Assembly: GCA_018266765.1 (NCBI GenBank)
Contig: JAFDZU010000047.1
Span: forward strand, 16,058 to 51,269
Direction: 5' to 3'
Length of the DNA: 35,212 nt
From: Bacteroidota bacterium
Lineage (GTDB): Bacteria; Bacteroidota; Ignavibacteria; Kapaibacteriales; UBA961
The notes beneath the pieces are model-generated. The model saw nothing but the letters and a program-made list of their open reading frames with translations. It searched no databases and had not been told where the DNA came from. The position numbers and the translations under genes were made by a program. Of the stretch, positions 6,304 through 28,134 are shown in pieces (positions within the stretch are counted from its first letter, which is position 1; every line of letters starts with the position of its first letter).

Positions 6304-7950
6304 ATGAATATTACTTTTTCAAAGGCAATTGTTTGTTCAATTGCCTTTTTTTCGGTTCTAACTTTTCAGATGTTTGCTGCTCAGGATGAAATCACCTCAA
6401 AATGCGGTACATATACTCCTGAAACAATATCTCGTTTTCAGGCAATAACTCAAGGGAAAACTATCACAGCTGACCGTCCAACACTTCAAACTTCTCATTC
6501 CTCACCGACCGGTAAATTTCTGATTCATTATGACACAACGGGAATAAATGCGGTATCACTTACAGATATAGACAAAAATGGCGTTCCGGATTGGGTGGAT
6601 TCCACAGAGATTTATCTTGAATATGCTTATCAAATTGAAGTTTCCGAGATGGGTTTCCCTCCACCTCCTTCGGATGGTAATGCAGGTGGTACACCTCAAT
6701 ATGATTTTTATATTCAAGACCTTTCAACATTCAATACTTACGGAATTTATGGTATAACATTTCCCGAATCAAGTGTTAGCGGTGGGAGTTTTCCTCGTTA
6801 TACAAGTTTCATTCTCTTAGATAATAATTTCAGCAAAACGGACATTCGCACTAATGGCAAACCTGTTTTTAATACTTATGGTTATGATGCTTTAAAAGTA
6901 ACGACAGCACATGAATTACATCATGCGATTCAAATGGGAGTCTATGGCGTTCCTACTCAATCACTTGATGCATCAGTAAACGAAATGACAAGTACGTGGA
7001 TGGAATATCGTGTTCATCCTGATATGGTTGATTATGTATTTTATCTTAATCCATTTTTTACTCAAAATGGAAATTACTCTTTCGGTAGAAGCGATCCTGA
7101 TTATGGATACCGATATGCAATCGTTCTGGAGTATTTCCATAGTTTATATGGCGATATGTTTATCAAGAGAATTTGGGAAATTATCGGTACAGGTGCGACT
7201 CCCTACCAAGCTATCGAGAATGCTTGCATTGAAAGAAATACAACACTTGCTGAAGCGTGGTGCAAATTTATGCCATGGATGTATCACACCGGAAAAAGAG
7301 CAATTCAAGGTAAATATTTCACAAAAAGTTCCACGTTCCCTGAACTCTCAATTATTCGTCAAGGGGTTTATTCTCCACCTTCTTTTACTACTACAAATTC
7401 TATTCGTCCATATGAAATTCAATTTACACAATGTAGATTACCCGCAGAAATCGCAAGTTCTACACCCGATACTGTTGATTTTATCATAACTTATCCGAGC
7501 ACAACAGATATTATTAATCATTACGACCGTCCGGGAGATTATACTCTTACTTGTTCAACTGAAGCATTGCCGTATTTGATTGAAGGTACTCGATTTAAAT
7601 GGAATATTACTTCACAAAATCCCGAAATCTGCCAGAATCATATTCTTACAAACGGATTTTCAGCGGCAACGAGTGAATTTGTCTATCCTAATCCTTTTCA
7701 TGTGGACACTGATGTTTCTCTTTACTTCCCAATTCCAACCAATGCTAATTATAATGATAAAATTATCCTTACTATTTATACTCTTGAATGGCAATCAATT
7801 TTTTCAGGTGAAATACCGGCTAACATTTATCAAAATAAACGTTTAGTACAGTGGACTCCGGATATCCATCTTCTTCCTTCTGGTGTGTATCTTTATACAT
7901 TGGATATACGAGATGTAACAACACTCGGGAAATTTACTGTCATTAGATAA
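6304..7950 (+). CDS. Secreted metalloprotease (MXAN_6640-like) with T9SS sorting tail
   Basis: A 548-residue secreted protein. Residues 1-26 form a signal peptide (cleavage near MFAA-Q). TTAHELHHAIQMG (200-212) contains the HExxH zinc motif (His203, Glu204, His207), and EMTSTWMEY downstream is a likely source of further ligands. DIDKNGVPDWVDS (88-100) and DFYIQDL (134-140) are typical of the putative metalloproteases called MXAN_6640 family. The last 80 residues (FVYPNPFHVDTDVSL through GVYLYTLDIRD) are a type-A T9SS C-terminal domain, which directs passage across the outer membrane and is normally cleaved. The signal-peptide codons contain a perfect intrinsic terminator hairpin at 6321-6352, an odd overlap described in the findings. 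Proteolytic activity is inferred from the motif. Confidence 0.82.
   Translation: MNITFSKAIVCSIAFFSVLTFQMFAAQDEITSKCGTYTPETISRFQAITQGKTITADRPTLQTSHSSPTGKFLIHYDTTGINAVSLTDIDKNGVPDWVDSTEIYLEYAYQIEVSEMGFPPPPSDGNAGGTPQYDFYIQDLSTFNTYGIYGITFPESSVSGGSFPRYTSFILLDNNFSKTDIRTNGKPVFNTYGYDALKVTTAHELHHAIQMGVYGVPTQSLDASVNEMTSTWMEYRVHPDMVDYVFYLNPFFTQNGNYSFGRSDPDYGYRYAIVLEYFHSLYGDMFIKRIWEIIGTGATPYQAIENACIERNTTLAEAWCKFMPWMYHTGKRAIQGKYFTKSSTFPELSIIRQGVYSPPSFTTTNSIRPYEIQFTQCRLPAEIASSTPDTVDFIITYPSTTDIINHYDRPGDYTLTCSTEALPYLIEGTRFKWNITSQNPEICQNHILTNGFSAATSEFVYPNPFHVDTDVSLYFPIPTNANYNDKIILTIYTLEWQSIFSGEIPANIYQNKRLVQWTPDIHLLPSGVYLYTLDIRDVTTLGKFTVIR
6321..6352 (+). terminator. Perfect 11-bp terminator hairpin inside signal-peptide codons
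   Basis: AAAGGCAATTG (6321-6331) pairs exactly with 6338-6348 across a six-base loop and continues into seven T (6346-6352). It lies 33 bases after the stop of the Fn3-like gene and covers codons 6 to 17 of the metalloprotease. It could end transcription of the upstream gene, attenuate the protease gene, or both. Confidence 0.75.
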
Positions 7951-8086
7951 CATGTTGTATAATAAGATAGTTCGTTTTATTATTTAAAATTCTTATCATT
8001 ATAATTCTACTGCTGGTGTAACCTTTTCTTTGTGTACCACACTTCCATAGTACTTGAGCAGATAAAACATTAATTCTAAACAATAC

Positions 8087-8644
8087 ATGAGCATCAATGA
8101 AACGAAACAAGACCGTTTTCTCCGTCTGCTTGCTCCGGTGCAAGAGTCGCTCGAACGTTTTGCATTGTTTCTTACTCGCAATCGTGAAGATGCCCGTGAC
8201 CTCGTCAGTGAAACGCTTCTTCATGCTTATTCAAAACTCGAATCATTACGCGATGAAATAACATTCCAGAGTTTTATTTTTACAATTGCACGAAGAACAT
8301 TTTATAATCTCAAGTCGAGAACTCGCAGGTTTGAACATATTGAACACAATGAAATAGACGAACTTTTTTGTGGAGGTGGAATTGCTCCCGATGTTGCGAT
8401 TGATGTTCAATTTCTTTACAAAGCTCTGGATTCACTATCAGACGTTCAACGAGAAGCAGTAATAATGGCAGAAATCATGGGATTCTCTCACAAGGAAATT
8501 CAAAAAATTCAAGGTGGAACAGTAACCGGAGTTAAAGTTCGCATTTACCGTGCAAAAAAACAATTAGCTAAAATTCTTGGTGCTGGGATAAAGCCCGACT
8601 CCCTTTCAGAAGAAGTAATCGAAGGAGCATTAAACTATGAATAA
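8087..8644 (+). CDS. ECF-type RNA polymerase sigma factor
   Basis: A 185-residue sigma-70 family protein with only regions 2 and 4. Region 2 spans about 18-85: FALFLTRNREDARDLVSETLLHAY matches the core-binding and -10 melting helices, followed by FQSFIFTIARRTFYNLK. Region 4 spans about 120-175, with LDSLSDVQREAVIMAEIMGFSHKEI and the recognition helix around VTGVKVRIYRAKKQLAKIL. Spacer sequence between them is short, as in ECF factors. Its last eight bases overlap the next gene, a one-pass membrane protein, which is the usual arrangement for a sigma and its anti-sigma. The signal it answers to is discussed under findings. No autoregulatory promoter motif could be fixed from a single copy. Confidence 0.88.
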   Translation: MSINETKQDRFLRLLAPVQESLERFALFLTRNREDARDLVSETLLHAYSKLESLRDEITFQSFIFTIARRTFYNLKSRTRRFEHIEHNEIDELFCGGGIAPDVAIDVQFLYKALDSLSDVQREAVIMAEIMGFSHKEIQKIQGGTVTGVKVRIYRAKKQLAKILGAGIKPDSLSEEVIEGALNYE

Positions 8645-9779
8645 TAATCTACAATCGTATTTCGATTCTGTCAAAAATGTCAGGAATAAACAGTCGCTTC
8701 TTAATAACGACGAGATTATTTCTTTGGTTGAAAAGAATGCACCAACAACTTCACTCAATGCGCCTAACAAATCCCTTGCTTTGTTAATGTCAGTAGCCTC
8801 AATTATTACAATAGTAGGAGCACTTGCAGTAGTCAAATACTCTTATTCCCCAACAACTTCAGTTATTACTCATTTAAAATCAGAGACCAATACTTCAAAC
8901 AAAACAAATCCGATTTCAGATAACATTAATACAGAACCAATCGAACAAAATAATGTAACAGTTGAAACTCCATTACAACCGCATAAACAATTTAAGAGCA
9001 AACAATTATCTCAAAACCAAACAAGCAATAAATTAAGCCCCGTATCTGCACAAGTACCCACAATAATAACACGAAAAACTACAGAGCACAAAGATATCGA
9101 AGGACTTAAAGTTATTGAATTATCTGAAGATGAAGCATTCGTACTTGCAGCGTATTATCCCAAATTATATACATGGCTCAACAAAAATTATTCTGCAACT
9201 GATACATGTGATATTACACTTACTCCTGTTTCAACGATGCAGGATAACACCATTTCCGAACTTCATTCGGTAGTTTTTCTTAAAATTAGACGTGAGAATC
9301 AAGAACAAAATCCTAAATCTGAAGAATTTATTTTATGGTTTACACCAACAATAGAGTTTGCAGATGCACTTCCCGAACGATATAAACTACCCTTTCAAAA
9401 AGAGTTAAATGTACGAGATCAAGTTGTTACAAATTGTGTGCCCGCCGAACGTGCTTGCAAAACTATGAAAGGAAGCTCTCCTTTTTTTGATTTATGTCGT
9501 CGTGAATCAGGCGCTCTTTCGTCTGTCACTATTTCTCCAAATCCTGCTTCGGAATCGGCAGAATGTACGTTCTTGCTCCAATCTGAGCGAGATATTTATA
9601 TTTCACTCCATGAAGTTTCAGGGCGTTTTGTAAAAACAATGATTCATAACGAACCAAAATCTGCGGGTGAACAAAAGGTTCCACTCTTATTACAGGGAAT
9701 TCCTGCAGGTGCATATTTAGTGGCAATTAGTACTAGTCGTGGCGAACAAGCCGTTATTCAATTGATAATTCAACAATGA
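8637..9779 (+). CDS. Single-pass membrane protein with T9SS-like C-terminal domain; candidate anti-sigma factor
   Basis: A 380-residue protein whose start overlaps the ECF sigma stop by eight bases. Residues 1-45 are cytoplasmic and polar, 46-66 form one hydrophobic span (LALLMSVASIITIVGALAVV), 70-150 is a Ser/Thr/Asn/Gln-rich low-complexity stalk, and 155-290 is a folded-looking region with four cysteines (191, 267, 274, 287). Residues 297-380 (VTISPNPASESAECTF, HEVSGRFVKTM, GIPAGAYLVAI) match the T9SS type-A C-terminal sorting domain. I see no zinc-binding HxxxCxxC anti-sigma motif, so the anti-sigma role is inferred from position and topology. The combination of an internal anchor with a secretion tail is unusual. 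Confidence 0.68.
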   Translation: MNNNLQSYFDSVKNVRNKQSLLNNDEIISLVEKNAPTTSLNAPNKSLALLMSVASIITIVGALAVVKYSYSPTTSVITHLKSETNTSNKTNPISDNINTEPIEQNNVTVETPLQPHKQFKSKQLSQNQTSNKLSPVSAQVPTIITRKTTEHKDIEGLKVIELSEDEAFVLAAYYPKLYTWLNKNYSATDTCDITLTPVSTMQDNTISELHSVVFLKIRRENQEQNPKSEEFILWFTPTIEFADALPERYKLPFQKELNVRDQVVTNCVPAERACKTMKGSSPFFDLCRRESGALSSVTISPNPASESAECTFLLQSERDIYISLHEVSGRFVKTMIHNEPKSAGEQKVPLLLQGIPAGAYLVAISTSRGEQAVIQLIIQQ

Positions 9780-9856: not shown

Positions 9857-10972
9857 ATGAAATCCTTTATTTATATTACTATTCTCTTTTTCGCAATAGC
9901 TTCAACTATTATGACTGCCCAACCTAAAATCCAAATCGTTGGTGGTGATACCCATGATTGGGGCAAAGTAAAAGCTAAAGATTCTCCATTGAAAACAGTT
10001 GTTCGATTAAAAAACATTGGGAATGAAATTCTGAAAATTACGGATGTGCATCCGGGTTGTGGCTGTACAAAAACTGCCGAACTTGATAAAAAAGAATTAA
10101 AGCCGGGTGAAATTGCTTCTACAGAAATATCACTGAATTTTGGTGCGGCAAGCGGCCCATTAACTAAATCCGTTACCATTACAAGTAATGATCCTACTAA
10201 TCCTTCAGCGAACTTGATACTTAAAGCAGATGTCATACGAGATATTAATCTCATTCCAACATCTTTTTTTACATTTAGTGATATGGTAGTCGGCAAACTT
10301 GCTACTGCATCACTTACACTTCAAAATAACTCAACCGAGGATATTACAATTACCGGAGTAAGTGCGTTAAATGGGGCATCCCTTAATCTTAAAAAAGGTA
10401 CAATCCTTAAAAAGGGTTCAAAACTTGAAGTTATTGCCTCGATAACACCAAAAGTAAAAGGATATTATTCAACTTCTTGTAGAATTGAAACTTCACATCC
10501 TGATTATTCGGCAATGGAAATTCCTGCTTATGGAAATATTAGAGATGAAAATGAATCTGTATCTATTCCACATAATCCTCCATCTCTTCCAATAGTAAGT
10601 AATGAAAATGCGGGGACAACTACCGGAACCGGTGTTGCTGTTTATAATAACTCCGAAATACCTTCCCAAGCTTTGGAGGTTAAACCATCGAGTTTATTTA
10701 CATTTACAAATTTATCAGTCGGAAAACTAGCAAAAGCTTCAATTACTCTCCATAATACTTCTAAAAAAGATGTTATACTAGATAATGTAACGACTTCTAA
10801 TGGTCTTATTGTAAATATCAAGAAAGGAACAGTAATTAAACGTGGTGCAAAAAAAGTTGTTATCGGTTCTATTACACCTACTACAAAAGGAAAAATCAAT
10901 GCAATTGCACAAGTTCATGCGGCTAATAATGCAGCAAATCTTCTGCTTGTAGCTGTTGGTGAGGTGAAATGA
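9857..10972 (+). CDS. Exported DUF1573 protein with two C-terminal repeat domains
   Basis: I start this at ATG 9857 (371 residues) because it opens directly into a signal peptide (MKSFIYITILFFAIASTIMTA, cleavage near residue 21); the upstream frame extension to 9776 encodes no sensible N-terminus. Residues 24-128 are a DUF1573 Ig-like domain with THDWGKVKA and the conserved HPGCGCTKT (65-73). Two further related beta domains follow, at about 135-230 and 277-371, each with FTFxxxxVGKLA...NGxxxNxKKGTxxK. They are internal repeats of each other. DUF1573 proteins are common exported proteins of Bacteroidota with no agreed function. The next gene is a shorter paralogue. Confidence 0.82.
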   Translation: MKSFIYITILFFAIASTIMTAQPKIQIVGGDTHDWGKVKAKDSPLKTVVRLKNIGNEILKITDVHPGCGCTKTAELDKKELKPGEIASTEISLNFGAASGPLTKSVTITSNDPTNPSANLILKADVIRDINLIPTSFFTFSDMVVGKLATASLTLQNNSTEDITITGVSALNGASLNLKKGTILKKGSKLEVIASITPKVKGYYSTSCRIETSHPDYSAMEIPAYGNIRDENESVSIPHNPPSLPIVSNENAGTTTGTGVAVYNNSEIPSQALEVKPSSLFTFTNLSVGKLAKASITLHNTSKKDVILDNVTTSNGLIVNIKKGTVIKRGAKKVVIGSITPTTKGKINAIAQVHAANNAANLLLVAVGEVK

Positions 10973-11075: not shown

Positions 11076-11798
11076 ATGAAAAATGTCAGTCTCTTTGCTG
11101 TTTTATTTTTAACAGCGGCTTCGATTGCCTTTGCGCAACCAAAAATTGAAATTGTTGGCGGTGATACACACGATTGGGGAAAAGTAAAAGCAAAGGATTC
11201 TCCCTTAAAAACTGTCGTAAAGATTAAGAACATCGGTGACCAAGTATTAAATATCACTGATGTACACCCTGGGTGTGGGTGTACAAAAACTGCCGACCTT
11301 GATAAAAAGGAATTACAACCGGGAGAAATCGCTTCAACTGAAATTTCATTAAATTTAGGAGCGTCAAGCGGCCCAATCACAAAATCAGTCTCGATTACAA
11401 GTAATGATCCAACTTCTCCCAGCAAAGTTCTTATGCTCAAAGCAGATATTACTCGTGATATTAACATTACTCCTTCTCCGTATTTTGCATTTTCAGGGTT
11501 AACGATTGGAATGCCTGCTACAGCTACTGTGCATCTCCAAAACAACTCTCAAGAAGATGTTACTATCGGTGAGATAACAACAACCAACGGACTTATACTG
11601 AATATAGCAAAAGGAACGGTTATCAAAAAAGGAACTGAAATTGAAGTAACTGCTAATACTGTTCCAAAAGAAAAAGGGTATTTCACAGCAACGTGCAAAA
11701 TAAACACGTCAAACACAGATTATCCGACAATTGACCTAACTGCGTATGGTGATGTTAAGGAAGCAACAGTAGCAACTCCTACTCCAAATAAAAAATAA
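11076..11798 (+). CDS. Exported DUF1573 protein, tandem paralogue
   Basis: A 240-residue protein with a signal peptide (MKNVSLFAVLFLTAASIAFA, cleavage after residue 20), one DUF1573 domain (21-125, with HPGCGCTKT) and one copy of the C-terminal beta domain found twice in its neighbour. By eye the mature DUF1573 domains of the two proteins are about four-fifths identical, while their codons differ at many silent positions. That points to an old duplication kept under strong protein-level constraint. The tail (ATVATPTPNKK) is short and low-complexity, with no sorting domain. It ends 17 bases from the stop of the convergent M1 peptidase gene. Confidence 0.82.
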   Translation: MKNVSLFAVLFLTAASIAFAQPKIEIVGGDTHDWGKVKAKDSPLKTVVKIKNIGDQVLNITDVHPGCGCTKTADLDKKELQPGEIASTEISLNLGASSGPITKSVSITSNDPTSPSKVLMLKADITRDINITPSPYFAFSGLTIGMPATATVHLQNNSQEDVTIGEITTTNGLILNIAKGTVIKKGTEIEVTANTVPKEKGYFTATCKINTSNTDYPTIDLTAYGDVKEATVATPTPNKK

Positions 11799-11815: not shown

Positions 11816-13768
11816 TTATTTGATTATTGATAATTGAGTTGAATATGCTCCGTAAGGCAATACAACTGTTACAGTGTATTTTCCGGACACTAACTCTTTT
11901 GTATCATATAAGTAAGTATTATCGCCGAATTTTGTGGACAAAGTTTTTGTTATTAGGGTTTCTCCCAATGAATTGACAACAGTCATCATTGCAGAACATT
12001 CGCCCGATGAGACAAGAACAACTTGCATTTCAGAACTGGCCGGATTGGGAATTATTCTCAACTCCGGCTGTTCTTTTTCTTGGCCGGATTCATCTACAGA
12101 TGTAATTTTTGTTGTTTGAAGCAATGCACGAAGTGTTGGTCCTTGGTTAATTACCATTGAAGTAAATCCCAGAGTATTATCTACTGTAAATGTTCCTTCT
12201 TTACCAACCAAATTAAAAACTTTTGTGGTGAGAATTTCACTACCTTTCAAAAATGTTATCTCAATTGGAACATTTACAAAAAATTCATTGCTTGCTTGTA
12301 CTTGCTTTACCATAACTGTTGTTCCTGCCGTTGTGGAACTCGGGAAATAATCAACATTTAATTCAGGCCAACCCTTTTTATACACCCACTGATTAAAAAA
12401 CCACGACAAATCATGTCCTGAAACTTCTTCAAATGTTTTTTTAAAAAGTTCTGTGGTTGCTGTCGAATATTTATATCGTTCGAGATACAATTTTATCGCT
12501 TTAAAAAAAAGTGAATCTCCCAATTCATACCGCAACATCCCCAATACAACTGCACCTTTGCTGTATATCGTTACAGGATAATTACTGCTTGGCTTAGCTC
12601 GCGGGAAATCGTATAATGAGAATACACCTTCAGTTTTTGCTTGTGAGAAATAATCTTTCATTTTATATTCTTGAGAGGCAATATATCCTTTTGTTCCACC
12701 CAATTCTTCTGCCCACAACGTTTCGCAAAATGTTGCGGGTGATTCGGTTAGCCATACATGACGAAAATCTTCGGGACTGACGGCATCGCCAAACCATTGA
12801 TGTGCAAGTTCATGCGCCGCAGTAGAATTGATAGTGTCTTTTCGTTGAGATAAAAAAGTAGGAAACGAAATCATGGTTTCATGTTCCATTGCACCTGTTG
12901 GTGTATTGACATATCCAACCTTTTCAAAAGGATATTTCCCAAATAGTTTCTCAAACGTACTCACCATACGTGGCAACAGTTTGAAAGAAACACGAGTTGA
13001 AGCTGTATCTGTCAGTCGAGAATAGACTACCATCGGAAGTTCAGGACTTCCAAAGGATAATGGAACATAAGAATCCACGGCAAACGTATATAAATAAGTA
13101 GCGCAAGGAACTTCATGCCGCCAATCATAAATTGTTGTATCACCACGCACTTCGTTTGTTCCTATTCCAATACTTGCTACAGTTTTTCCGTTTTTAACTT
13201 TAAATCGTGCATGGAACGTTGCTTTGTCAGACGGATGGTCATAGCACGGTAACCAATGCCGTGTAGTTGAAACGTAATTAGCTACAAAGCCAACACCTAA
13301 AGCGTATAATGTTCCACTTTGGGAAGTAACTCCTCCGCACCAACTTGATGAGCCGCCTGTTTCACACGTCATTTTTCCACTGTAATAAATTTTAACGAAG
13401 GATGTATCACTTTTGTTTACGGTGAAGGGTGCGGTCACACAATATGAGGTATATAACGAATTTGGGTCTGTGTGTAGTTCAAACGTCGTTTTGGTAGAAT
13501 TAAAAAAAACCGAATCTACCGTAAGCCCTTGTAAATGAAAATAGAAACATTCGCCGGATGGTTTATCGCTCACCCATATAAGAGTAGTTGTGCAAATGCC
13601 TGTCATATCCGTTGCAGGCGCGCTCATGAGGTTTAAATCTGCATCATAATGAATGACATCAAATGGCTGTTTAATCGTAAAAACAGGCGAAGAAGGTTCG
13701 GTAATCAGAGCTTTTTGTGAATATAAAGTAGCCGAGCTGATTAAGAAAAGAAGTATGAATATTTTCAT
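11816..13768 (-). CDS. Secreted M1-family aminopeptidase with T9SS sorting tail
   Basis: A 650-residue exported zinc aminopeptidase. The signal peptide is residues 1-17 (cleavage near LYSQ). The exopeptidase motif is GAMEH (292-296; His where many members have Asn). The zinc site is HELAH (319-323) followed after exactly 18 residues by Glu342, the M1 HEXXH-X18-E pattern. RHWLPCYDHPSDKATF (170-185) is also typical of the family. Residues about 570-650 (LRIIPNPASSEMQV to SGKYTVTVVLP) are a T9SS type-A sorting domain, so the enzyme should reach the cell surface or medium and trim peptides there. Several extra cysteine pairs in the N-terminal half suit an extracellular enzyme. It starts 51 bases after the FkbM gene and may share its transcript. 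Confidence 0.9.
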   Translation of the reverse strand: MKIFILLFLISSATLYSQKALITEPSSPVFTIKQPFDVIHYDADLNLMSAPATDMTGICTTTLIWVSDKPSGECFYFHLQGLTVDSVFFNSTKTTFELHTDPNSLYTSYCVTAPFTVNKSDTSFVKIYYSGKMTCETGGSSSWCGGVTSQSGTLYALGVGFVANYVSTTRHWLPCYDHPSDKATFHARFKVKNGKTVASIGIGTNEVRGDTTIYDWRHEVPCATYLYTFAVDSYVPLSFGSPELPMVVYSRLTDTASTRVSFKLLPRMVSTFEKLFGKYPFEKVGYVNTPTGAMEHETMISFPTFLSQRKDTINSTAAHELAHQWFGDAVSPEDFRHVWLTESPATFCETLWAEELGGTKGYIASQEYKMKDYFSQAKTEGVFSLYDFPRAKPSSNYPVTIYSKGAVVLGMLRYELGDSLFFKAIKLYLERYKYSTATTELFKKTFEEVSGHDLSWFFNQWVYKKGWPELNVDYFPSSTTAGTTVMVKQVQASNEFFVNVPIEITFLKGSEILTTKVFNLVGKEGTFTVDNTLGFTSMVINQGPTLRALLQTTKITSVDESGQEKEQPELRIIPNPASSEMQVVLVSSGECSAMMTVVNSLGETLITKTLSTKFGDNTYLYDTKELVSGKYTVTVVLPYGAYSTQLSIIK

Positions 13769-14950: not shown

Positions 14951-17900
14951 ATGTCAACAAAGTTTTTTACTAATAGCGAAGAGAACACCCTTATCAAGAA
15001 ATTTGAAGGGATTTTTACATACAATCCCAATATACAATACTTTGACGCATTAGTAGGTTACTTTAGGGCATCAGGTTATTTTCGTATTAGACCATTTTTA
15101 GACAAAGTTCCAATCATTAGAATTTTGGTTGGCATCAACATTGACAAAATGCTTGCAGATGCACAAAGGGAAGGACTTGAGTTTTTCAAGAATCACGAAA
15201 AGACAAAAGAGGATTTCATAAAGAAAATACAAGAGGACATTGAAAAAGCCAATTACGACAAGGACACGGAAAAAGGAATCTTGCAATTCATTGACGACTT
15301 GATTGAAAAGAAAATTCAAATCAAAGCTCATCCTGAAAAAAAAATTCACGCCAAAGTTTATATTTTACGACCAGAGCCATTTAACGAACATACTCCTGCA
15401 ACAGCAATTACAGGTTCATCAAACTTGACAGACGCTGGACTTGGTGGCGGTAATTTTTACAATTATGAATTCAATGTGCAACTTACCGAATATCCTGATG
15501 TGAAATTTGCGACAGAAGAATTTGAAAAATTGTGGGCTGAATCTGTGGACATTCTGCCAGTTGACATTCAGAACATCAAAAAGGAAACGTACCTGAATGA
15601 AGAAGTAACGCCTTTTGAACTATATATAAAACTCCTAACAGAATACTTCGGAAAGAACATTGATTACGACCCTGATTCAATAAGCGACTTACCGCAAAAT
15701 TTCAAAAAACTATCTTATCAAGTTGATGCCGTAAATGAAGGTTTCAATATGCTTTTAAAACACAACGGATTTTTATTGGCTGATGTTGTGGGTTTAGGCA
15801 AAACCGTAATTGCCGCAATGGTGGCGAAAAAGTTTTTGATGCAAAACGGTAGGGACAACACCAAAATATTAATCGTGTATCCGCCAGCAGTGGAGAAGAA
15901 CTGGAAAGACACATTCAAAGATTTTCAACTTGACAAATACACCAAGTTCATTACTAACGGTAGTCTTGAAAAAATACTAAATGGTCATCAAGATTACTGG
16001 AATAAAGAAGAATATGATTTAGTAATTGTTGATGAAGCTCATAAATTTAGAAATTATACCACTGGCGTGTTTCAGCATTTACAATTGATTTGCAAAAGCC
16101 CAAGAGCAAATAAAGGGCAAATTGACGGCTCGCAGAAAAAAGTAATTTTAGTTTCGGCAACGCCTTTGAACAACAGACCTGACGACATTTTCTATCAAAT
16201 TCAAATGTTTCAGGATGCAAGACAATCAACTTTGCCAATAACTAACCTTACCTCATTCTTTGCTCCATTGATGGAGCAATACAAAACGCTAAAGCGTTTT
16301 GACGAATTAGATGTAAACAAGCTAAGAACCATTTACGGTAAAATTCGCAAGAATGTAATTGAACCAATTACCATTCGCAGAACACGAACAGACCTTGAAA
16401 ATATTCCTGAATACAAAATTGACTTAGACGAACAAGGCATCAAGTTCCCGAAAGTTGACCCACCTAAAAAAGTGGAATACCTGATGGACGAAAAACTGAA
16501 TGAACTTTTTCATAAAACTGTTTTCTATCTCACTGACGAAGACAAGCTAAAATACAGCCGTTACCAAGCCATTGCAGGACTGAAACAAGAAATTCAAGAC
16601 AAGTATTATGAAAATGCGGAAACGGTTTCTAAATCGTTGGCATTTATAATGAAAACCCAATTGATAAAGCGATTGGAAAGTAGTTTCTATGCTTTCAAAA
16701 AATCATTGAGCAATTTTCAAATTGCTACCGACAGAATGATTGAAATGTTTGAAAATGATAAAGTGTTTATTGCTCCCGACACCAATATAAATAAATTGCT
16801 TAATGATGGTTGGTCACAGGAAGATATTGAATCCTACATCGAAAAACTAAGCGAAGAAAATCCTAAAAACCAAACTTTCAAAGGTGCTGACTTTAACGAA
16901 GGATTTATTGAAAGTTTAAAAAAGGATTCTAAACTTTTGAAGGAATTAATAAAAGGTTGGAATGCGATTAAGAATGACCCAAAGATGGATGTTTTCATTG
17001 CTCAACTCAGCAAACAATTCCTAAACAAGAAAACCAATGTAGAAGGCAAATTAGTCATCTTCTCCGAATCAAAAGACACCGTTGACTATTTGGCAAAGGC
17101 ATTAGAAGATGCCGGAAGAAAAGATGTATTGGTTATTTCTGCCGCCAACAGAAAACAAATGTATGACACAATAGTAACCAACTTTGATGCAAACTGGGCT
17201 ACCGACAAACAAGTGAATGATTACAACATCATCATCACCACCGAAGTATTGGCAGAAGGTGTGAACTTGCACCGTTCCAATGTAGTTATTCACTACGATA
17301 CGCCTTGGAACTCAACTAAATTAATGCAACGGATTGGACGTGTAAATCGTATTGGAACAAAAGCAAGTGCTATTTACAACTATGTCTTTTATCCTTCGGC
17401 ACAAGGCGATTCGCAAATCCAATTAAATAAAACCGCCTTTATGAAAATACAGGCGTTTCACACAGCTTTTGGCGAAGACAATCAGGTGTTTTCTATCGAG
17501 GAAATTTTAGATGAAGTTAAACTCTTTAGCGGAACATACAAGGAAGAAGAAGATGAACGATTAAAATTTTTATACTTCTTACGCCACTTCAAAAAAGCAA
17601 ACCGAGCTTGGTTCGACAAGATTAAAAAACTGCCTTTGAAATCAAGAGTAGGTCGAGATTCAGCCAACATAATCAAACCCGAACTGCAAAATGGAACAGC
17701 TGCATTTTTAAAGACCGATAAAAAGTTTGAATTCTATTGGATTGACAGCAATAATCAGCCAAAAGAAATCACACCTATTGAAGCATTTAAAATATTTGAA
17801 GCCAACCAAAAGGAAAAAAATGTTGCATTGATAGAAACACACCACGAACACGTAAACAAAGCATTGGAACATTTTGAAACGCTTGAACATAAAATTGCAC

Positions 17901-18223
17901 AATCGCAAACTGACCCCGAAGCTTTGGGCGGTGTAGCACAAAGAGCAAAAAAATTCTTGTCCGTCTTAGTGAAGTATCCGCAAGTAACTGAAAAGCAAAA
18001 AGAAAACATTAAAAAAATTATCGTGCTGATTGATATTGGTAAATACACTAACTTACCTACTGAAATTGACCGTTTGCAAAAAAAGAAGGTAAACCTGAAT
18101 ATTGCTTTAGCCGAAATTGATAAAATTGCGGTACAATACAATATAGATTTAAGTAATGCTCAAAAAGGCAAAAAAAGCAAAGTTGAAAAACCTGTATTAA
18201 TTATTTCAGAATCCTTTGAATAA
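14951..18223 (+). CDS. PLD-nuclease / SNF2-type helicase fusion protein
   Basis: A 1090-residue protein. Residues about 1-200 form a phospholipase-D-like domain with one catalytic HxK motif (IHAKVYI, His133/Lys135) and GSSNLTDAGL (155-164). A superfamily 2 helicase of the SNF2 type follows: Walker A in DVVGLGKT (278-285), DEAH (361-364), SATPLNN (402-408), then after a long alpha-helical insert the second RecA lobe with LVIFSESKDTVDYL, EVLAEGVNLHR and QRIGRVNRIGT (from 793). A single PLD motif suggests it works as a dimer. Such fusions occur in defence and restriction loci, where they move along and cut DNA. The gene starts a tight operon: the DUF1016 gene begins two bases after its stop. Confidence 0.88.
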   Translation: MSTKFFTNSEENTLIKKFEGIFTYNPNIQYFDALVGYFRASGYFRIRPFLDKVPIIRILVGINIDKMLADAQREGLEFFKNHEKTKEDFIKKIQEDIEKANYDKDTEKGILQFIDDLIEKKIQIKAHPEKKIHAKVYILRPEPFNEHTPATAITGSSNLTDAGLGGGNFYNYEFNVQLTEYPDVKFATEEFEKLWAESVDILPVDIQNIKKETYLNEEVTPFELYIKLLTEYFGKNIDYDPDSISDLPQNFKKLSYQVDAVNEGFNMLLKHNGFLLADVVGLGKTVIAAMVAKKFLMQNGRDNTKILIVYPPAVEKNWKDTFKDFQLDKYTKFITNGSLEKILNGHQDYWNKEEYDLVIVDEAHKFRNYTTGVFQHLQLICKSPRANKGQIDGSQKKVILVSATPLNNRPDDIFYQIQMFQDARQSTLPITNLTSFFAPLMEQYKTLKRFDELDVNKLRTIYGKIRKNVIEPITIRRTRTDLENIPEYKIDLDEQGIKFPKVDPPKKVEYLMDEKLNELFHKTVFYLTDEDKLKYSRYQAIAGLKQEIQDKYYENAETVSKSLAFIMKTQLIKRLESSFYAFKKSLSNFQIATDRMIEMFENDKVFIAPDTNINKLLNDGWSQEDIESYIEKLSEENPKNQTFKGADFNEGFIESLKKDSKLLKELIKGWNAIKNDPKMDVFIAQLSKQFLNKKTNVEGKLVIFSESKDTVDYLAKALEDAGRKDVLVISAANRKQMYDTIVTNFDANWATDKQVNDYNIIITTEVLAEGVNLHRSNVVIHYDTPWNSTKLMQRIGRVNRIGTKASAIYNYVFYPSAQGDSQIQLNKTAFMKIQAFHTAFGEDNQVFSIEEILDEVKLFSGTYKEEEDERLKFLYFLRHFKKANRAWFDKIKKLPLKSRVGRDSANIIKPELQNGTAAFLKTDKKFEFYWIDSNNQPKEITPIEAFKIFEANQKEKNVALIETHHEHVNKALEHFETLEHKIAQSQTDPEALGGVAQRAKKFLSVLVKYPQVTEKQKENIKKIIVLIDIGKYTNLPTEIDRLQKKKVNLNIALAEIDKIAVQYNIDLSNAQKGKKSKVEKPVLIISESFE

Positions 18224-18225
18224 GT

Positions 18226-19257
18226 ATGAACGTAGAGATTTCTCAACATCATTTTATAGCAGATATAAAGCGTAAAGTAAGGCAAGCTCAATACGAAGCT
18301 TTAAAAGTTGTAAACACACAACTCATTAATTTATATTGGGAAATTGGAAAATCTATAGCTGAAAAACAATCAGAAAATTGGGGCAAAGTTATTGTACCTA
18401 CCTTATCAAAAGAATTGCAAAATGAATTTCCCGGTATTGGTGGTTTTTCTGTTGGCAATTTATGGCTGATGGCTCAATTTTATACTGAATATCAGTCTGT
18501 TGAATTTCTCGTACCACTGGTACGAGAAATTAGTTGGAGTAAGCATATTACTATTTTAAAAAAATGCAAAAACAACCAAGAACGCCAATTTTACATCCTC
18601 TCTACAAAAAAATTCGGGTGGACTAAAAATGTGTTGATTCATCAAATTGACAACCAAACATTCCAAAAATACCTGCTCAATCAAACCAATTTTGAAAAGA
18701 CACTCCACGAAAACATCAGAAACCAAGCTCATTTAGCAGTAAAAGATGAATATACTTTCGAATTTCTAAACCTTTCGGACGAACATTCTGAAAGCGAATT
18801 AGAGCAAGCACTCATTCAAAATATACGGGCATTTCTTTTAGAACTTGGGCACAATTATACTTTTGTGGGTAATCAATACAAAATAACAGTAAGTGATAAA
18901 GAATACTTTATTGACTTACTGTTATACCACCGCCAATTGCAATCTCTTATTGCTATTGAATTAAAAATTGGCGAATTTTTACCCGAGTACAAAGGTAAAA
19001 TGGAATTTTATCTTTCTCTACTAAATGACACTGTAAAACTTCCCCACGAAAACGAAGCCATTGGTATTATTATTTGCAAAAGTAAAGACAGGACTATTGT
19101 TGAATATTCTCTTAAATCAAGCACAATGCCTATTGGTGTGGCGACTTACAATACCTCCACTATTTTACCTAAAGAATATAAAAACCTGTTGCCAAGCAGT
19201 GCTGAAATTTCCGATAAAATCAATCAATATTTTAGTATAAAAACAATTGAACTATGA
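18226..19257 (+). CDS. DUF1016 / YhcG-family PDDEXK nuclease
   Basis: A 343-residue protein with the two parts of this family: an N-terminal helical domain (about 10-160; LINLYWEIGKSIAEKQ, FGWTKNVLIHQID, LLNQTNF) and a C-terminal PDDEXK nuclease domain with Asp230 (YFIDLLLYH) and the Glu245-x-Lys247 pair (IELKIGEF). Family members accompany many restriction-modification and other defence loci. It sits two bases after the helicase stop and overlaps the methylase start by four bases (ATGA), so all three are likely one translation-coupled unit. The coding sequence contains a perfect 14-bp inverted repeat at 18503-18531. Family call is firm; its exact job within this trio is not known. Confidence 0.9.
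   Translation: MNVEISQHHFIADIKRKVRQAQYEALKVVNTQLINLYWEIGKSIAEKQSENWGKVIVPTLSKELQNEFPGIGGFSVGNLWLMAQFYTEYQSVEFLVPLVREISWSKHITILKKCKNNQERQFYILSTKKFGWTKNVLIHQIDNQTFQKYLLNQTNFEKTLHENIRNQAHLAVKDEYTFEFLNLSDEHSESELEQALIQNIRAFLLELGHNYTFVGNQYKITVSDKEYFIDLLLYHRQLQSLIAIELKIGEFLPEYKGKMEFYLSLLNDTVKLPHENEAIGIIICKSKDRTIVEYSLKSSTMPIGVATYNTSTILPKEYKNLLPSSAEISDKINQYFSIKTIEL
18503..18531. repeat. Perfect 14-bp inverted repeat inside the DUF1016 gene
   Basis: AATTTCTCGTACCA (18503-18516) and its exact reverse complement (18518-18531) flank one central base. It encodes the residues EFLVPLVREI. The arms are far longer than expected by chance in coding sequence. It could be a protein-binding site, an mRNA hairpin, or a small palindromic insertion tolerated in frame. 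Confidence 0.9.
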
Positions 19258-20840
19258 CATACGAACAAATTCACAACCTATTTAAGCAACGCTACAACCA
19301 AAACAATTGGAAACAATTTCTGGGTGGAGCATTTGCCGATCCTCAGTTGCTGGCAACTCCCGAAATACTTATGGGTATTGACAGCAATGTTGCCTCACAA
19401 GTACAAAAATTGGGATACATAAATCTCGACGAAAACGGCTTTAAACGCCAAATTGCCGTGTATGAAGTTACCTTGGCACAAGGCATAATTTTAGAACGTA
19501 ACCGTGTTGGTCTCCGAAATTTGCTTCGCAAATACTGGAAAGATATGGATGCCGCTTTTATTGCCTATCATAGACCTGAAACTCCCAATTGGCGTTTCAC
19601 TTATGTGTCGGAATCACCTGGATTTGTTGACAAAAAACAGGTAAAAATCGAAACCGAACCAAAACGCTACACGTATGTTTTGGGTGAAGGCGAAAGCACT
19701 CGAACAGCCGCCGAACGCTTTACAGCAATAGCCGCCAAAGGCAGTAAGGCAACTTTAGATGATGTAAAAGATGCCTTCTCGGTAGAAAAACTTTCCAAAG
19801 CATTTTTTGACGAATACAAAAAACACTATGATATTTTTTGCGATTTTATGGTCTCTAAGCCAAGCATTCGCCAAACTATATTCAACGGTGACGAAAAAGG
19901 AATTCGTGATTTCAATAAAAAACTTTTAGGGCGAATTGTATTCCTATATTTCATTCAGAAAAAAGGGTGGCTCGGTGTGCCGGTAAATGAAGATTGGGGC
20001 AAAGGCGATTTTAATTTCCTTACCCAACAGTTTGAAAACTTTAGAAATAAAGACCTTTTCTATCAATCATTTTTATCGCCTTTGTTTTTTGAAACTCTCA
20101 ACCTAAAAAGAGAAAACGATATTGCTTCCTTTCTCAACAATCAAACAAATCCTGAAAATCACAGTACAAACAATTTAAAAATTCCCTATTTGAATGGTGG
20201 TTTATTTGAAGAAGAAGACAAAAAGCACCGCAACCTAATTTTTCCTGCCAATCTATTCAAAAATCTATTCGACTTTTTTAATCAATACAACTTTACCATT
20301 TACGAAGACGACCCTAACGACCATACAGTAGCGGTTGACCCCGAAATGCTGGGACATATATTTGAAAACTTACTCGAAGACAACAAAGACAAAGGTGCAT
20401 TCTACACGCCGAAAGAGATTGTACATTATATGTGTCAGGAAAGTTTGATTGAATATCTTACCACATGGTTTGAGAATAAAGGATATGAAATTGTTGGATT
20501 TACGAGCTTGGGAAACCAAAACGAACCGGAACTTTATCCTATCAATGACAATAGAAATGGACAGTTGCTCATTGAAGTAAAACTTGAAGAAAATACCAAA
20601 AAAATTGACCGCAGTTTGATTGAAAAACTACTGAAAAAAAAATTGGACGATGACGACAAAAAACTTGTCACGTTACATTCTGCCGAATTCCATAATGCCT
20701 TAGATACAGTGAAAATATGCGACCCTGCCATTGGCTCGGGAGCTTTCCCTATGGGATTGCTCCACGAAATATTTACCGCAAACAAACTCTGCACACCTTT
20801 GAACACGGCAACACCAAAACCTTTGACGCTTCGGCTGTAA
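19254..20840 (+). CDS. Eco57I-class DNA methylase, N-terminal part (cut short by frameshift)
   Basis: The first 510 or so residues of a type IIG-like adenine methylase. RQIAVYEVTLAQGIILERNR, PKRYTYVLGEGESTRTAAERF, MLGHIFENLLEDNKDKGAFYTPKEI and the SAM motif I CDPAIGSGAFP (489-499) are typical of the Eco57I-like methylases of Bacteroidota. After LHEIFTAN (ending near 20783) the frame turns to nonsense and stops at 20840. Adding one A in the GCAAAC at 20778-20783 restores a continuous product into the next frame (TAKQTLHTFEHGN), for a full protein of about 1072 residues. Either a recent inactivating deletion or a sequencing error; the break is in a run of only three A, so not an obvious phase switch. 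Starts inside the DUF1016 stop. Confidence 0.85.
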   Translation: MTYEQIHNLFKQRYNQNNWKQFLGGAFADPQLLATPEILMGIDSNVASQVQKLGYINLDENGFKRQIAVYEVTLAQGIILERNRVGLRNLLRKYWKDMDAAFIAYHRPETPNWRFTYVSESPGFVDKKQVKIETEPKRYTYVLGEGESTRTAAERFTAIAAKGSKATLDDVKDAFSVEKLSKAFFDEYKKHYDIFCDFMVSKPSIRQTIFNGDEKGIRDFNKKLLGRIVFLYFIQKKGWLGVPVNEDWGKGDFNFLTQQFENFRNKDLFYQSFLSPLFFETLNLKRENDIASFLNNQTNPENHSTNNLKIPYLNGGLFEEEDKKHRNLIFPANLFKNLFDFFNQYNFTIYEDDPNDHTVAVDPEMLGHIFENLLEDNKDKGAFYTPKEIVHYMCQESLIEYLTTWFENKGYEIVGFTSLGNQNEPELYPINDNRNGQLLIEVKLEENTKKIDRSLIEKLLKKKLDDDDKKLVTLHSAEFHNALDTVKICDPAIGSGAFPMGLLHEIFTANKLCTPLNTATPKPLTLRL

Positions 20841-22471
20841 AACTCAATATAATTCAAAACAGCATCTACGGTGTGGATATTGAACGCGGTGCGGTGGATA
20901 TTGCTCGATTGCGGTTTTGGTTGAGCTTGATTGTAGATGAAGAAAAACCGAAGGCACTCCCCAACCTCGATTATAAAATTGTAGTAGGCAATAGCTTAGT
21001 AAGCAAACTCGGCGATGATATTATTGATATTGATTGGAATGTAGATACCACAAAATCCGGTGCATTTGCTCAGAAATATTTAGAAGAAAGCAAAGTTGTG
21101 CTAACTCAAATAAGTAAAGAACAAAAAGAGTTTTTTAACCCGGAAAGCGACAAAAAGAAACTGGCAGAAGATATTCGAAAACTGAAAATTGACTTGCTGA
21201 TTTCACAATTGGAGATGATGGTGAATACCAAAGGTATTGAAAAACAACCAGTTGGAACAGGAAAAACTACAGCTAAACAAACTGAAATATACCTCCAAAC
21301 TATGGGGTGGAAAAACTCTATCAAAGACTTACAAAAACTCAAAAACAAACCCGAAGCTCCGCTTCATTTTTTTGATTGGAAATTGGATTTTCCTGAAGTT
21401 ATGAATGAACAAGTTACAACCAATGTTGGGTTTGATATTGTCATTGGAAATCCACCTTATGGAGCAAAATTTCCTCAAGAAGATAAAATATTTTTCAGAA
21501 ATAGATTTAAAAGTGCCATAACTATTTCTGGAGTTCAAAAGGGATCCTTCGACACATATTCATTATTCATTGAGAAAGGGTTCCAATTATTAATATCAAA
21601 AGGTTTTCTCATGAAAATTGTGCCTATTTCTGTCTGTTCTGGAGATTCAATGACCGCATTGCACAATTTCCTACTTGTTAACTGTGGCGTAATAAAATTC
21701 TCATCATACTCGGATAGACCTCAACAAATTTTTTCAAGTGCAGCGCAAGCTGTTAGTATATTCAGTTTCAAAAAAGATTTTACAGTTAATAAATATATTT
21801 ATTCAACTAAGATGTATCGTAAAGACGCAACAACTTCAATTAAAGAGATTGTTGATAATCTTCGATTCACTAACTCTAAAGGATTTGAATTAGTTGGACG
21901 TTTTGCTAAGATTAGTTTAGATATCGAAAAAGCTATACTAAATAAAATATTTAAGTCATCATCAAGTATAGGTAAACTGTTAAAAAGTAAAGGCGTTAAG
22001 ATATATTATAGAATGGCTGGCGGACGATATTACAAAGTGATTACTGATTATCCAGCTAATCTTTCTTCTGAAAAACATTTGGTCTTTGATAAAAAAATTG
22101 CAAAGTGTTTAGGCGCATTTTTGAGCAGCAACCTATTATGGTGGTATAATCAAGTTTACACCAGCTATCCGAATTGGAAAGCATACGAAATAGAATCATT
22201 TCCTATTCCATTAGATGCATTAGATAATGAAAAAATTGAACAATTAGAGAAGATTTTTTCTGAATATTTAAAAGACATAGAAAAGAATGCAAATGTTAGA
22301 GAAACGGAAAAGTATGCAAATATTGATTCTTTTAAAGAGTATAAAATTGGAAGATCCAAACATTTGATTGATAAAATTGATGATATAATTGGACCTCTTT
22401 ACGGATTGACGAAGGATGAAATCCATTTTATTAAGAAGTATGAGATTAATTATAGACTTCAAGAAGAATAG
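20717..22471 (+). pseudogene. Eco57I-class DNA methylase, C-terminal part (frameshifted continuation)
   Basis: Continues the methylase in another frame. Genuine homology begins near 20783 (KQTLHTFEHGNTKTFDAS); the codons from 20717 to there are out-of-frame readings of motif I. It carries NSIYGVDIERGAVDIARLRFWLSL and the catalytic motif IV, NPPY (21449-21460), then the target-recognition region and the usual end, LIDKIDDIIGPLYGLTKDEIHF. No stop codons have accumulated over 560 codons, so the break is recent or artefactual. Sequence after about 21450 looks more AT-rich and differently coded than the front half, which fits a recombined recognition domain. A second, orphan C-terminal tail follows directly. 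I mark it as a pseudogene only because of the frameshift. Confidence 0.8.
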
Positions 22472-22612: not shown

Positions 22613-23857
22613 TTACCATTCCGATGCTGTAGAAGCAGTCACAGCCGGCTCAGGTGGAGCGGACATTGGCGGCATACCGAGCAATCCAAAGATTGCATTT
22701 CGGTCATTCGGGTCGAAAACAAGTTCGTTCAGAAGTTGAGGCAAGGGCATATCACCCCACGAGATTGCTCTTTTGATAAGATACGGAACAGGACTATGCG
22801 GTTCATTCTTTAGAAGGAAATCAGCGGCTTCATTAAGTCGTCTGTAAGCATCTTCACGCGTTCTTACTGTATTGGACATATTTTGCATAATTTTCCTTTC
22901 TGTTTCCTGCACACGAATCGGTGCTGTGGCTTGTTTCACAGCATTTTTAGGAGATTCATGCGCAGTATAAAGAGATGAATTGTCATCAGAAATACCTGAT
23001 TCTTCATAATATTCAGTTTCGTCTTCTGTAATTTCTTCTACTTCAATTTCGGGTTCGGGAACGATAAGTTCGGCGGCACGTTCTTTGAGAATATCACTGG
23101 TAAATCGTTCAATTTTACCGATAACATCGCGGAAAAGTTTAAAACTTGGCGATTGTTTTCCGCATTTTTCATCAAGGAATTTCTCAAAATCAGACAGTGT
23201 TTGCTGAATATGACCGAGTATTTGACTAAGATTTGTATAATACTCAATTGGAGTATTGAGCATACTCTCACGATATTTTTCACGAGTAAGCCGATTTTCT
23301 AATTCCTCGGGTTCGATTGAAAAAGGGTTTTTTCGCAATGTATTTTCGAGTGTAAGTACGCTTTCCCAATCAATAAAATTATAAGAAGGAATATCTCGAG
23401 AACGTGGCTTTGTACACTGAATACTTTTGGGTTTGTGAAATAGCTTTTCATTGAGCCATTGAAGTGGTGCAGTTCGATATTCGACATCATGTTCTTCGAG
23501 AGCCGGATATAACGTATCCCAATATTTATAACAAAGTTCGGACGCAAGAGTAATTCCATTGTCAATTCCCTCGAATCCACGGATATTCATCCATGATTCA
23601 AAGAGCCAAATAGCAATTTGAAGGTCTTTGGATTTGGTAAGCAATGCTTCGGAACATAGTTTTTGAGTGAGCGTCCAGTCAGCTTTTTTAAGAGATTTTT
23701 GCCAAACCCCTTGGTCAAGTGTTGGATCGTCCTCGCGGCGTGCCTCTTGGATATTATCATAAATTGCTTCGTAGCGTAACCATTCACCTGTTGGGTTATC
23801 CTCCGAAATAGGTTCGAGGAATGGTTCAATTACAGCAGAAACAGTAGAATTTTCCAT
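22613..23857 (-). CDS. tssA: Type VI secretion system protein TssA (ImpA family)
   Basis: A 414-residue protein. The N-terminal ImpA domain (about 10-140) has the signature PISEDNPTGEWLRYEAIYD and QEARREDDPTL. Residues about 270-320 are an acidic linker (PEPEIEVEEITEDETEYYEE). The C-terminal block EPHSPVPYLIKRAISWGDMP (352-371) is the short-form TssA end. TssA primes baseplate assembly and helps polymerise the tail tube and sheath. It is the last gene of the leftward tssL-tssM-tssA set, 32 bases after tssM, and ends 37 bases from the defence-island remnant on the other strand. Confidence 0.93.
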   Translation of the reverse strand: MENSTVSAVIEPFLEPISEDNPTGEWLRYEAIYDNIQEARREDDPTLDQGVWQKSLKKADWTLTQKLCSEALLTKSKDLQIAIWLFESWMNIRGFEGIDNGITLASELCYKYWDTLYPALEEHDVEYRTAPLQWLNEKLFHKPKSIQCTKPRSRDIPSYNFIDWESVLTLENTLRKNPFSIEPEELENRLTREKYRESMLNTPIEYYTNLSQILGHIQQTLSDFEKFLDEKCGKQSPSFKLFRDVIGKIERFTSDILKERAAELIVPEPEIEVEEITEDETEYYEESGISDDNSSLYTAHESPKNAVKQATAPIRVQETERKIMQNMSNTVRTREDAYRRLNEAADFLLKNEPHSPVPYLIKRAISWGDMPLPQLLNELVFDPNDRNAIFGLLGMPPMSAPPEPAVTASTASEW

Positions 23858-23889
23858 ATTAATTTACTAATATAAGTTCATAGTATCAT

Positions 23890-26800
23890 TCAAGGTTTAG
23901 GCGGTTCGGGTATTAGCTTCGGAGCAGAAGCCGGAAATATCGGAAGAGCCAATCCCATTTTCTTTTCGGGAGAAAATAGATTCAGCTTTATAAATATTTT
24001 GGCTACCGATGGAAGTGCTGCACTTCCGCCTGAAGTTGTCGGAACAGCAAATGCAAGAATATTTTGATTCGAGAGATTATCAATATCATCATCTTCCGGT
24101 GTATGCACTCTATGTTCTTGAATAAATTGTACTAACGACCAAGGATTTGCAAATTCAAACACCGCAATTTTTGCCTCAGATTCAACATGATAATTTGCAT
24201 TCGGAACAGAAGGTTGCGTTGGGAAATTTGGAGCATCTTTAGCCCATCGAAGTGCTAATTTAACAGGACTTCTCCAGAACCATCTTCCTTTACGTTCAGC
24301 ATCACGATTGGTAATTCGAGTATTTCCGAGAGTTAACGCCCATTCTATAATTTGTTCACCGCCGGCATCTTCATTTCTATTCGCTCTGAATTCTACATCT
24401 GCATCATAGCTCAGCACAGGATTTTTTTGCTCACTCGCCAAAAATCCATTAAAGAACTTGCGAACACCTTCTATTGTACTGATAAAACGCGCCACATCTC
24501 TACGAGAATCGCTTGTATAATAGTTGTTTTGGCGGATTGCGTCTTTGCCGTTTCCAAATCGTTCGTAGTATTTATAGAATTCACGTACTTCTTCAGGATC
24601 TGCATTATACGATTCTTGCGACATTACAAATCCTGCCGGAACAAATGGATATTTCCCTGATAGATGTTGATTAAAATAATCTTGCATTGATTTATAATTT
24701 GCAATTGCTTCTCTATCGGCAAGCTCTTGAGCACGACGATAAATCGTTCTTTTCATATCTCTTAATTTTTCAGAGAAGTAATCATTATCACTTTTTGAAA
24801 GAGACTTAACTGAAGTTTTAGCAACAAAATTATCAATTGAAATGCTGTCGATGTCAATGAGGATAAAGTTCTCTAATGCAGTAAGTGAACTTCCCGGAAT
24901 CTTATTATCGTAATAGTCAATATGAGTTAGAATTTTCGACCATTTATCATAATACGAACTGCCATCTCCATTACTCCGAACAGATGGATTTTTCAAGAAA
25001 CTAAGAAGTGGCTTGGCATTATAAGCAAAGAGTTTTACTAATCGTTGTTGTGCTATCACAAAATCGTTCAAATCACCTTCTTGACGTGCATCGAATACTA
25101 CATTTGAGAGTGTTCGTCCGCGCCCTGTCCATGCTTGAATTTTACTGTCTTCTATAGTATAAATTCTCTTGCTTTCAAGCTGACCGTCTATCGTACCGAG
25201 AAGTATGTTTGCTTGTGAAATCAAGTCATCGGCGAGCCACTTTTTGGCACTAACCATTCTTTTTTGTTCAAAAGTCGTGAGCAATTTGATAAGTATTCCC
25301 GAAGCATCACGGAAATTATCAATTTCATTTTTAACGCTTTCCTCTGTTCCAATCGAATATGCACCATTAGCAAACTGTGACTGAACTATACGATTGCGTG
25401 CATCAGTTTCAATTTGATACATTGCAATATTTTGGATAGGCAATTGCAGAGCAAGAGGAAATTTCGGTAATTCTTTATTTACAAATTGTGTTGAAATCTC
25501 GATTCGATTGCTTACTTCTTCTAATAATGGAACATTCCAACTGATATTAGCAACACCGAGAGCTAAATTTGGTGCCGGAGCTGTTCTCATAAAATCTTGA
25601 CCAAGCAAGTTTTCAAGAAGTGTTCTGAGTGCTTTTACTTCCTTGGAAAGTGTTATTTTTTTGTCTGCCGCCGTAAAAATTAAATCGTTATATGCAGTTT
25701 TTTGTGCCAGCAAATTATTTTTAAGCTGTTGAAAATCAGCATCAGCATTTTCACTAAATCGTTTTGCCTCTGAAATATCAATAAATTGTGAGTGAGCAAG
25801 TGTTTCTGTGATTTTGGAGTATTTAGGTCCTAGGTTAAGTGCATCAGCAGTTATCCAACTGATTTCGGGACGTGCAAGTGCAGTTTCGAGTTCCCCCAGA
25901 ATATCATAAAGCCGAAGTGTAATCAATCCGTCTTTTTGCTGACTTTGTCCACTTGTACTAAAGTTTCTGATTGCATCAGTTAGCTCACGTATTTTTGCAC
26001 AGCGCATTATGAGCGGATTACTGCTAAATGTACTCGAAAAAAACTTAAGTGATAATTGGTCGAGTTTTGCTTGTGCGGCTTTCTGATAGTCAAGGGGATT
26101 AAAAAGTTCTGCCTTCGCTTGTATAACAGCTTTAGAAAAATAATATGCTTGGTCACTTCCGAATGAAGTTGATAAATCTATTTTAAATAGATACTTAATC
26201 AAATCATTCACATAACTTAAATCACCTTGTCCTACTTTACTTAAATTATTATAATCGGTACAATTCTTTTCAAGGAGTGAAAGTTCATCAATATAATTTT
26301 TAAGTGCTATGAAAGCCGGGAACTGGTCGACTCTTTGTATTGGTTGAAGATTTTCAGCATTATCCTCTGAATTCGATGAATTGTCTGTAATCAGTGGAGT
26401 GCCGAAGAACGATAAATTCGGTGCATTTGAGCCGGTCTTTTTAGTTAAGAGAAACACCTCGTTTGCTCGCTTATCTAATCCATATCGTAAAACTCTTAAT
26501 ATAAATTTATCATACTTTTGAGTCATACATTCAGTTATTTTACCGTGAATCGGACTGAACCACGAACTCGGAATAAAAAACGATGAAAGACGCTTACCAT
26601 CATTCGTATTAGCATAATTAAGAAAAGCATTCACTACTGACTCGTTGATTTCGGATTTATCGGGAAGTACGGGGCTTATTGGCTTTGGCATTCCCGAAGG
26701 TAAACTGTTTGACACTGTTATTTCAGTTTCAGATAGCACCTTAATAAACGGATACAGAATATTTTTACGTTCATCGAGATTATTATAACCAAAGTACATC

Positions 26801-28080: not shown

Positions 28081-28134
28081 AGTAACAGCTTTTTAAATAA
28101 TATAAATATTTAATTATTTAATATTAAAATTAAA

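Follow-up and report, generated by a model that had tools for sequence, protein, structure and literature searches.

What may a T9SS sorting domain do at the end of a protein that occupies the place of an anti-sigma factor? The question is raised by two genes within the 35,212-nucleotide stretch of DNA analysed here (the window), where the ORF of a sigma factor and the following ORF overlap by 8 nt (Table 1), and where the original prediction saw a sigma/anti-sigma-like gene pair whose sigma factor could be set free once the T9SS is jammed. The product of the first gene contains sigma-70 regions 2 and 4 only (Pfam Sigma70_r2, residues 20-81, 1e-10; Sigma70_r4_2, residues 110-160, 1.7e-12; both above cut-off), which is the domain content of the ECF class, and ECF sigmas SigH, RpoE, and CnrH are found among its PDB relatives. 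The second product combines the general attributes of membrane anti-sigma factors, i.e., partnership with an ECF sigma gene and one membrane helix of N-in orientation; its binding to the sigma factor, judged from gene position and pairing, is likely. Upstream of the sigma gene on the same strand (6304-7950), a MXAN_6640-type putative metalloprotease with a weak match to a sorting tail is encoded.

Table 1. Features of the sigma/anti-sigma-like locus (positions in the window; residue numbers refer to the putative anti-sigma factor)
Feature	Position	Strand	Basis
Predicted ECF promoter of the sigma operon, TGTAACC-N16-CACTTCC	8017..8046	+	Family motif, 21.3 bits, best in window
ECF sigma factor, 185 aa	8087..8644	+	Sigma-70 regions 2 and 4 recognised by Pfam over cut-off; ECF sigmas among PDB relatives
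Putative membrane anti-sigma factor with T9SS type A CTD, 380 aa	8637..9779	+	
Residues 1-44, cytoplasmic, presumed sigma-binding part, predicted helices 4-15 and 24-33	8637..8768	+	AlphaFold2 model, positive-inside rule
Residues 45-68, membrane helix	8769..8840	+	Hydrophobicity, model, charges
Residues 69-158, disordered periplasmic linker	8841..9110	+	pLDDT <50 over most
Residues 159-290, small mixed domain with LxLSxxE and LPERY motifs, family-conserved	9111..9506	+	Conservation, model
Residues 291-380, type A T9SS CTD sandwich	9507..9776	+	Pfam/TIGR, relatives, model, structure matches, alignment
DUF1573 protein with signal peptide, possible operon member	9857..10972	+	Start 9857 rather than 9776
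Second DUF1573 protein, possible operon member	11076..11798	+	

The search of 60 relatives showed that the conserved part of the putative anti-sigma factor exceeds the CTD, extending from approximately residue 205 to the end, and the profile of this domain plus CTD collected 92 distinct proteins scoring at least 77 bits from assembled genomes, many of them MAGs. For 85 of the 92 homologues an ECF sigma gene is located upstream on the same strand; a 4-nt overlap is the commonest arrangement, and in a few cases the distance is larger, as at L040 (1.0 kb) and at L049 (1.9 kb, with a masked stretch). Four of the remaining seven are truncated by contig ends, one (L021) has a frame-disrupted sigma gene found only by tblastn, and two (L054 and L115) are sigma-less and encode soluble proteins with a signal peptide. 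Since pairing recurs at 85 loci it is not a matter of chance, and none of 12 plain CTD cargos, inspected likewise, has a sigma gene beside it. The predicted pair thus proved to be genuine, its absence from related genomes is excluded, and the observation is confirmed as real rather than a one-off. Comparison of distance matrices for sigma and anti-sigma proteins over 83 loci gave a rho of 0.47 versus a permutation maximum of 0.18, which shows their co-inheritance, partly reflecting shared ancestry. At one locus (L030:2768-5287) sigma and anti-sigma-like parts are combined in one open frame of 840 aa with an inserted PPIC rotamase, for which an assembly error is possible because the fusion occurs in a single genome only; it lends indirect support to binding of the sigma factor. 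The family is present in 52 of 123 genomes of the order (E 1e-19), often in several copies per genome, and in 60 of 391 genomes of the class sample, including three families outside the order; the named matches belong to Candidatus Kapaibacterium and "Ignavibacteria" MAGs. Among 245 genomes of another Bacteroidota class, searched, as everything beyond the class, by the family profile only, so that layouts with an unrelated ectodomain could have escaped, the only match was the CTD of a 3,120-aa protein.

In the AlphaFold2 model of the window protein, two short helices and the membrane helix are followed by an extended disordered region, then by a mixed domain, and finally by a sandwich of seven strands. 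The pLDDT of the N-terminal part (residues 1-44) is about 57-84, and the single hydrophobic segment (residues 48-66) falls within the modelled helix 45-68. On average 3.0 Lys and Arg residues precede this helix versus 1.2 behind it, and the N-terminal side is net more positive in 72 of 82 family members. Charges therefore favour the N-in topology, placing the C-terminal domain in the periplasm as was proposed, and exclude its cytoplasmic location, the alternative specified beforehand. Both gene pairing and this topology can be regarded as well supported. The zinc motif HxxxCxxC was encountered in none of the 82 members, in agreement with its predicted absence, while the predicted lack of a signal peptide holds in the sense that there is no cleavable one: a signal-peptidase-like AxA is present in only one of 82, and helix 45-68 lies behind an N-terminus of 44 residues. 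On these grounds, together with charge distribution, the possibility that the membrane helix itself serves as a signal peptide was rejected. Linkers across the family are rich in S, T, N, A, P, and Q, and in both structure searches the matches were filled by the CTD sandwich rather than by the domain preceding it. Additional domains occur in some members (TonB_C in four, PPIC rotamase in L030), and the anti-sigma-like protein L104:2150-4483 has two Por_Secre_tail matches, apparently representing a duplicated sensor-CTD module.

Attribution of the C-terminal part to T9SS sorting domains deserves closer consideration, as the CTD of the window copy falls just under the curated cut-offs (23.2 versus 27 bits for Pfam and 21.6 versus 23 for TIGR04183). 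The weak score is a peculiarity of this copy because 16 of 17 aligned relatives match Por_Secre_tail (PF18962, TIGR04183), the best with 7e-13. The sandwich modelled at about 291-380 (294-378), with pLDDT mostly above 90, is close to the CTD of T. forsythia mirolase (8qb1; Z 11.3, 1.9 A over 77 residues) and to PorU (6za2; Z 11.1, 1.8 A over 87 residues) and also matches NucA in the translocon (8glk), so that the type A CTD anticipated at the end of the protein was recovered by relatives and structures alike. Fold alone is nevertheless no proof of T9SS function, since unrelated Ig-like folds match the sandwich at similar Z. This ambiguity suits another explanation, according to which the protein is an ordinary membrane anti-sigma factor, and its CTD only a structural or ligand-binding Ig-like domain, a relic of an exported ancestor resembling the soluble homologues and no longer recognised by the T9SS. 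Its merits can be weighed on the alignment of 83 family CTDs with 58 cargo CTDs, the latter taken from the 30 top CTD loci of the window's genome and from neighbours in the fetched loci, so that frequencies are rough. The landmarks PNP, G, and GxY are common to both sets. At the motif E column cargos have Lys in 27 and Arg in 7 of 58 sequences, whereas the family has Arg in 68 and Lys in 8 of 83; the conserved CTD lysine has a role in export of type A cargo and contact with PorV (PMC10202324, PMC10994853). Replacement of the cargo basic pair by Gln-Arg in motif E, and Gln with no basic residue at this place in the window copy, favour a domain retired from sorting, as does the fact that every T9SS effector known so far has a Sec signal peptide (PMC10202324). 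On the other side, the domain is kept at the extreme C-terminus with its type A landmarks in 83 sequences, basic residues at the motif E column are more frequent in the family (76 of 83) than in cargo (34 of 58), and among the lineages searched the family occurs only in T9SS-bearing ones. A purely structural role looks unlikely to us. In addition, Glu in "GE" distinguishes 67 of 83 family CTDs from cargo (6 of 58), and Arg in the third strand is present in 63 of 83; by these sequence features the family CTDs are a distinct subclass of the T9SS type A CTD, and may help to find out which features render a CTD exportable.

Upstream of the sigma genes the family motif TGNAACYTTT-N13-CWCTTMC was found, exceeding 13 bits at 60 of 84 loci (maximum 10 for shuffled sequences), a count somewhat flattered because the matrix was fitted on those loci. 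In the window's genome the strict form of the motif has two sites, both at sigma/anti-sigma pairs (none for the reversed control), and none precedes T9SS genes; as the strict pattern was written from those two sites, this shows their uniqueness rather than the absence of other targets. In 11 other genomes, the regulon search with one mismatch gave counts similar to the reversed-pattern control in several cases, so that only exact and sigma-adjacent sites were used, and most exact sites likewise precede sigma genes. Two exact sites in G051 (L170 and L180) have no sigma gene found beside them, implying that some genomes may have further targets; the L180 site precedes a gene with a signal peptide. 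With strict sites at two pairs only, the detectable output is the operon itself and not the T9SS.

These data bear directly on the originally proposed role, in which cargo and the anchored CTD compete for the translocon or sortase, and a jam releases the sigma factor as an export-stress response. Speaking for it are the intact CTD on an inner-membrane protein, the presence of the T9SS throughout the order except for one genome, and the precedent of P. gingivalis, where PorA, a protein with a type A CTD, contributes to the control of T9SS genes via PorXY-SigP (PMC7712824). However, neither of the two strict sites lies at a T9SS gene; genes adjoining the pairs encode exported proteins with DUF1573, VIT domains, or BNR repeats rather than T9SS machinery or quality-control factors; the window copy has no basic residue in motif E; the family is missing from many genomes of the order that bear a T9SS (71 of 123); and the window's genome has a PorX-like receiver-PglZ protein besides. 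Release of sigma by a jammed T9SS was thus not borne out, and we regard it as highly improbable, while promoters and neighbours speak for a module of local action rather than for a response of the whole T9SS. The same genome encodes SprA, PorU, and five PorV-family proteins over cut-off, the latter perhaps dedicated to different CTD subclasses; its CTD matches number about 150. One more weak C-terminal T9SS tail belongs to a Peptidase M1 protein encoded in the window on the minus strand (11816-13768).

As for the neighbours themselves, DUF1573 genes follow the pair also at L022 and L122 (Pfam-confirmed) and, by sequence likeness, at L024, L025, L128, L141, and L149; VIT genes come after eight of the pairs and after the two soluble homologues without sigma, all Pfam-confirmed except L052, a near-copy of L051; and outer-membrane barrels or TonB plugs are encoded in some neighbours (L027, L034). 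At 35 of 85 loci there is no next downstream gene on the same strand, hence the neighbour is not always the target. The soluble homologues (L054:2582-3475 and L115:1491-2357) comprise the ectodomain with a signal peptide and a CTD of the family type, each followed by the VIT-domain gene. Their composition and location lend some credit to a scheme whereby a protease cuts the ectodomain, freeing the sigma factor and allowing the CTD-bearing part to be exported by the T9SS as a surface protein, perhaps together with a VIT partner, and the disordered linker adjoining the membrane helix agrees with it too. But neither a protease nor a conserved cleavage site was identified, and cleavage followed by export seems to us an improbable scenario.

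Farther along the window, three adjacent type VI secretion genes are located on the minus strand (22613-28911), encoding ImpA_N (TssA), IcmF-related (TssM), and DotU (TssL) proteins. The region 14951-22471 contains a SNF2/PLD-like helicase, a DUF1016/YhcG nuclease, and an Eco57I methylase (20717-22471), which overlaps the preceding frame 19254-20840 having no Pfam match; the whole resembles a cluster for restriction or defence, in which the methylase may be split.

In the reading that we prefer, the sigma factor and its membrane anti-sigma factor form an autoregulated module, and the tethered ectodomain, tipped with the CTD, would sense either the T9SS or a partner that is exported. The two N-terminal helices would hold the sigma factor at the inner membrane, and the long flexible linker would let the ectodomain reach across the periplasm. 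There the sorting-type CTD may dock either on the T9SS, with SprA/PorV or a different PorV-family shuttle as the point of contact, or on a partner that is exported or lies in the outer membrane and is often the product of the neighbouring gene (VIT, DUF1573, or BNR). A changed contact would then free the sigma factor via conformational change, pulling, or proteolysis, and the freed sigma might transcribe its own operon and the adjacent gene. Contact with the T9SS and direction of the signal are what we infer here; motif E of the window copy without its basic residue and the lack of the Sec signal peptide typical of known effectors count against the scheme, and the entire chain seems to us to come close to an even chance without reaching it. 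Another reading, in which the transmembrane anti-sigma factor acts as a tethered T9SS substrate or decoy, and the sigma factor is freed when the secretion machine of the outer membrane docks or pulls the sorting domain and so signals occupancy or force, is put forward tentatively, as rather doubtful. If true, a single protein would link inner-membrane sigma control to outer-membrane T9SS sorting, two processes that are not known to meet there, and since the family is large, multi-copy, and has a recognisable promoter, the idea is testable by ordinary genetics and reporter assays.

Separate constituents of such a device have been described, namely CTD-linked regulation via PorA and the two-helix anti-sigma class, and the novelty would reside in an anti-sigma-like protein that ends in a CTD, for which no description was found in the literature searched, a partial coverage with most subscription journals outside. 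Anti-sigma factors of class I (ASDI) possess a four-helix N-terminal domain, and a separate class is formed by two-helix anti-sigmas, such as CnrY, two helices of which bind its sigma (PMC7406223). The model of the window protein has two helices before the membrane helix, with modest confidence, which does not correspond to ASDI, whereas the two predicted helices ahead of a single membrane helix, which may contact the sigma factor, recall CnrY in their arrangement. CnrY is not known to have a large ectodomain or a CTD. As in the PorA/PorXY-SigP system of Porphyromonas gingivalis, one regulatory pathway would include an ECF sigma together with a protein bearing a type A CTD, but PorA is a surface protein acting via a two-component system, while in the family it is the putative anti-sigma factor itself that carries the CTD, and no T9SS gene has the promoter. 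Like T9SS type A cargo, the family protein carries a complete C-terminal CTD of the same fold with the PNP/G/GxY landmarks; unlike cargo, it has no cleavable Sec signal peptide, is held by a membrane helix, and shows a different motif E, in the window copy without the lysine, along with the added Glu and Arg signature. The FecI-FecR-FecA system resembles it in uniting an ECF sigma with a regulator that spans the inner membrane once and could use its periplasmic part to read a partner that is exported or lies in the outer membrane, in acting locally, and in the outer-membrane barrels or TonB plugs of some neighbours. It is distinguished from FecR by the absence of a match to the FecR domain (Pfam, E 0.01) in 17 members, by neighbours of the VIT, DUF1573, or BNR type instead of a classical TonB-dependent receptor, and by the T9SS CTD with which the family proteins end.
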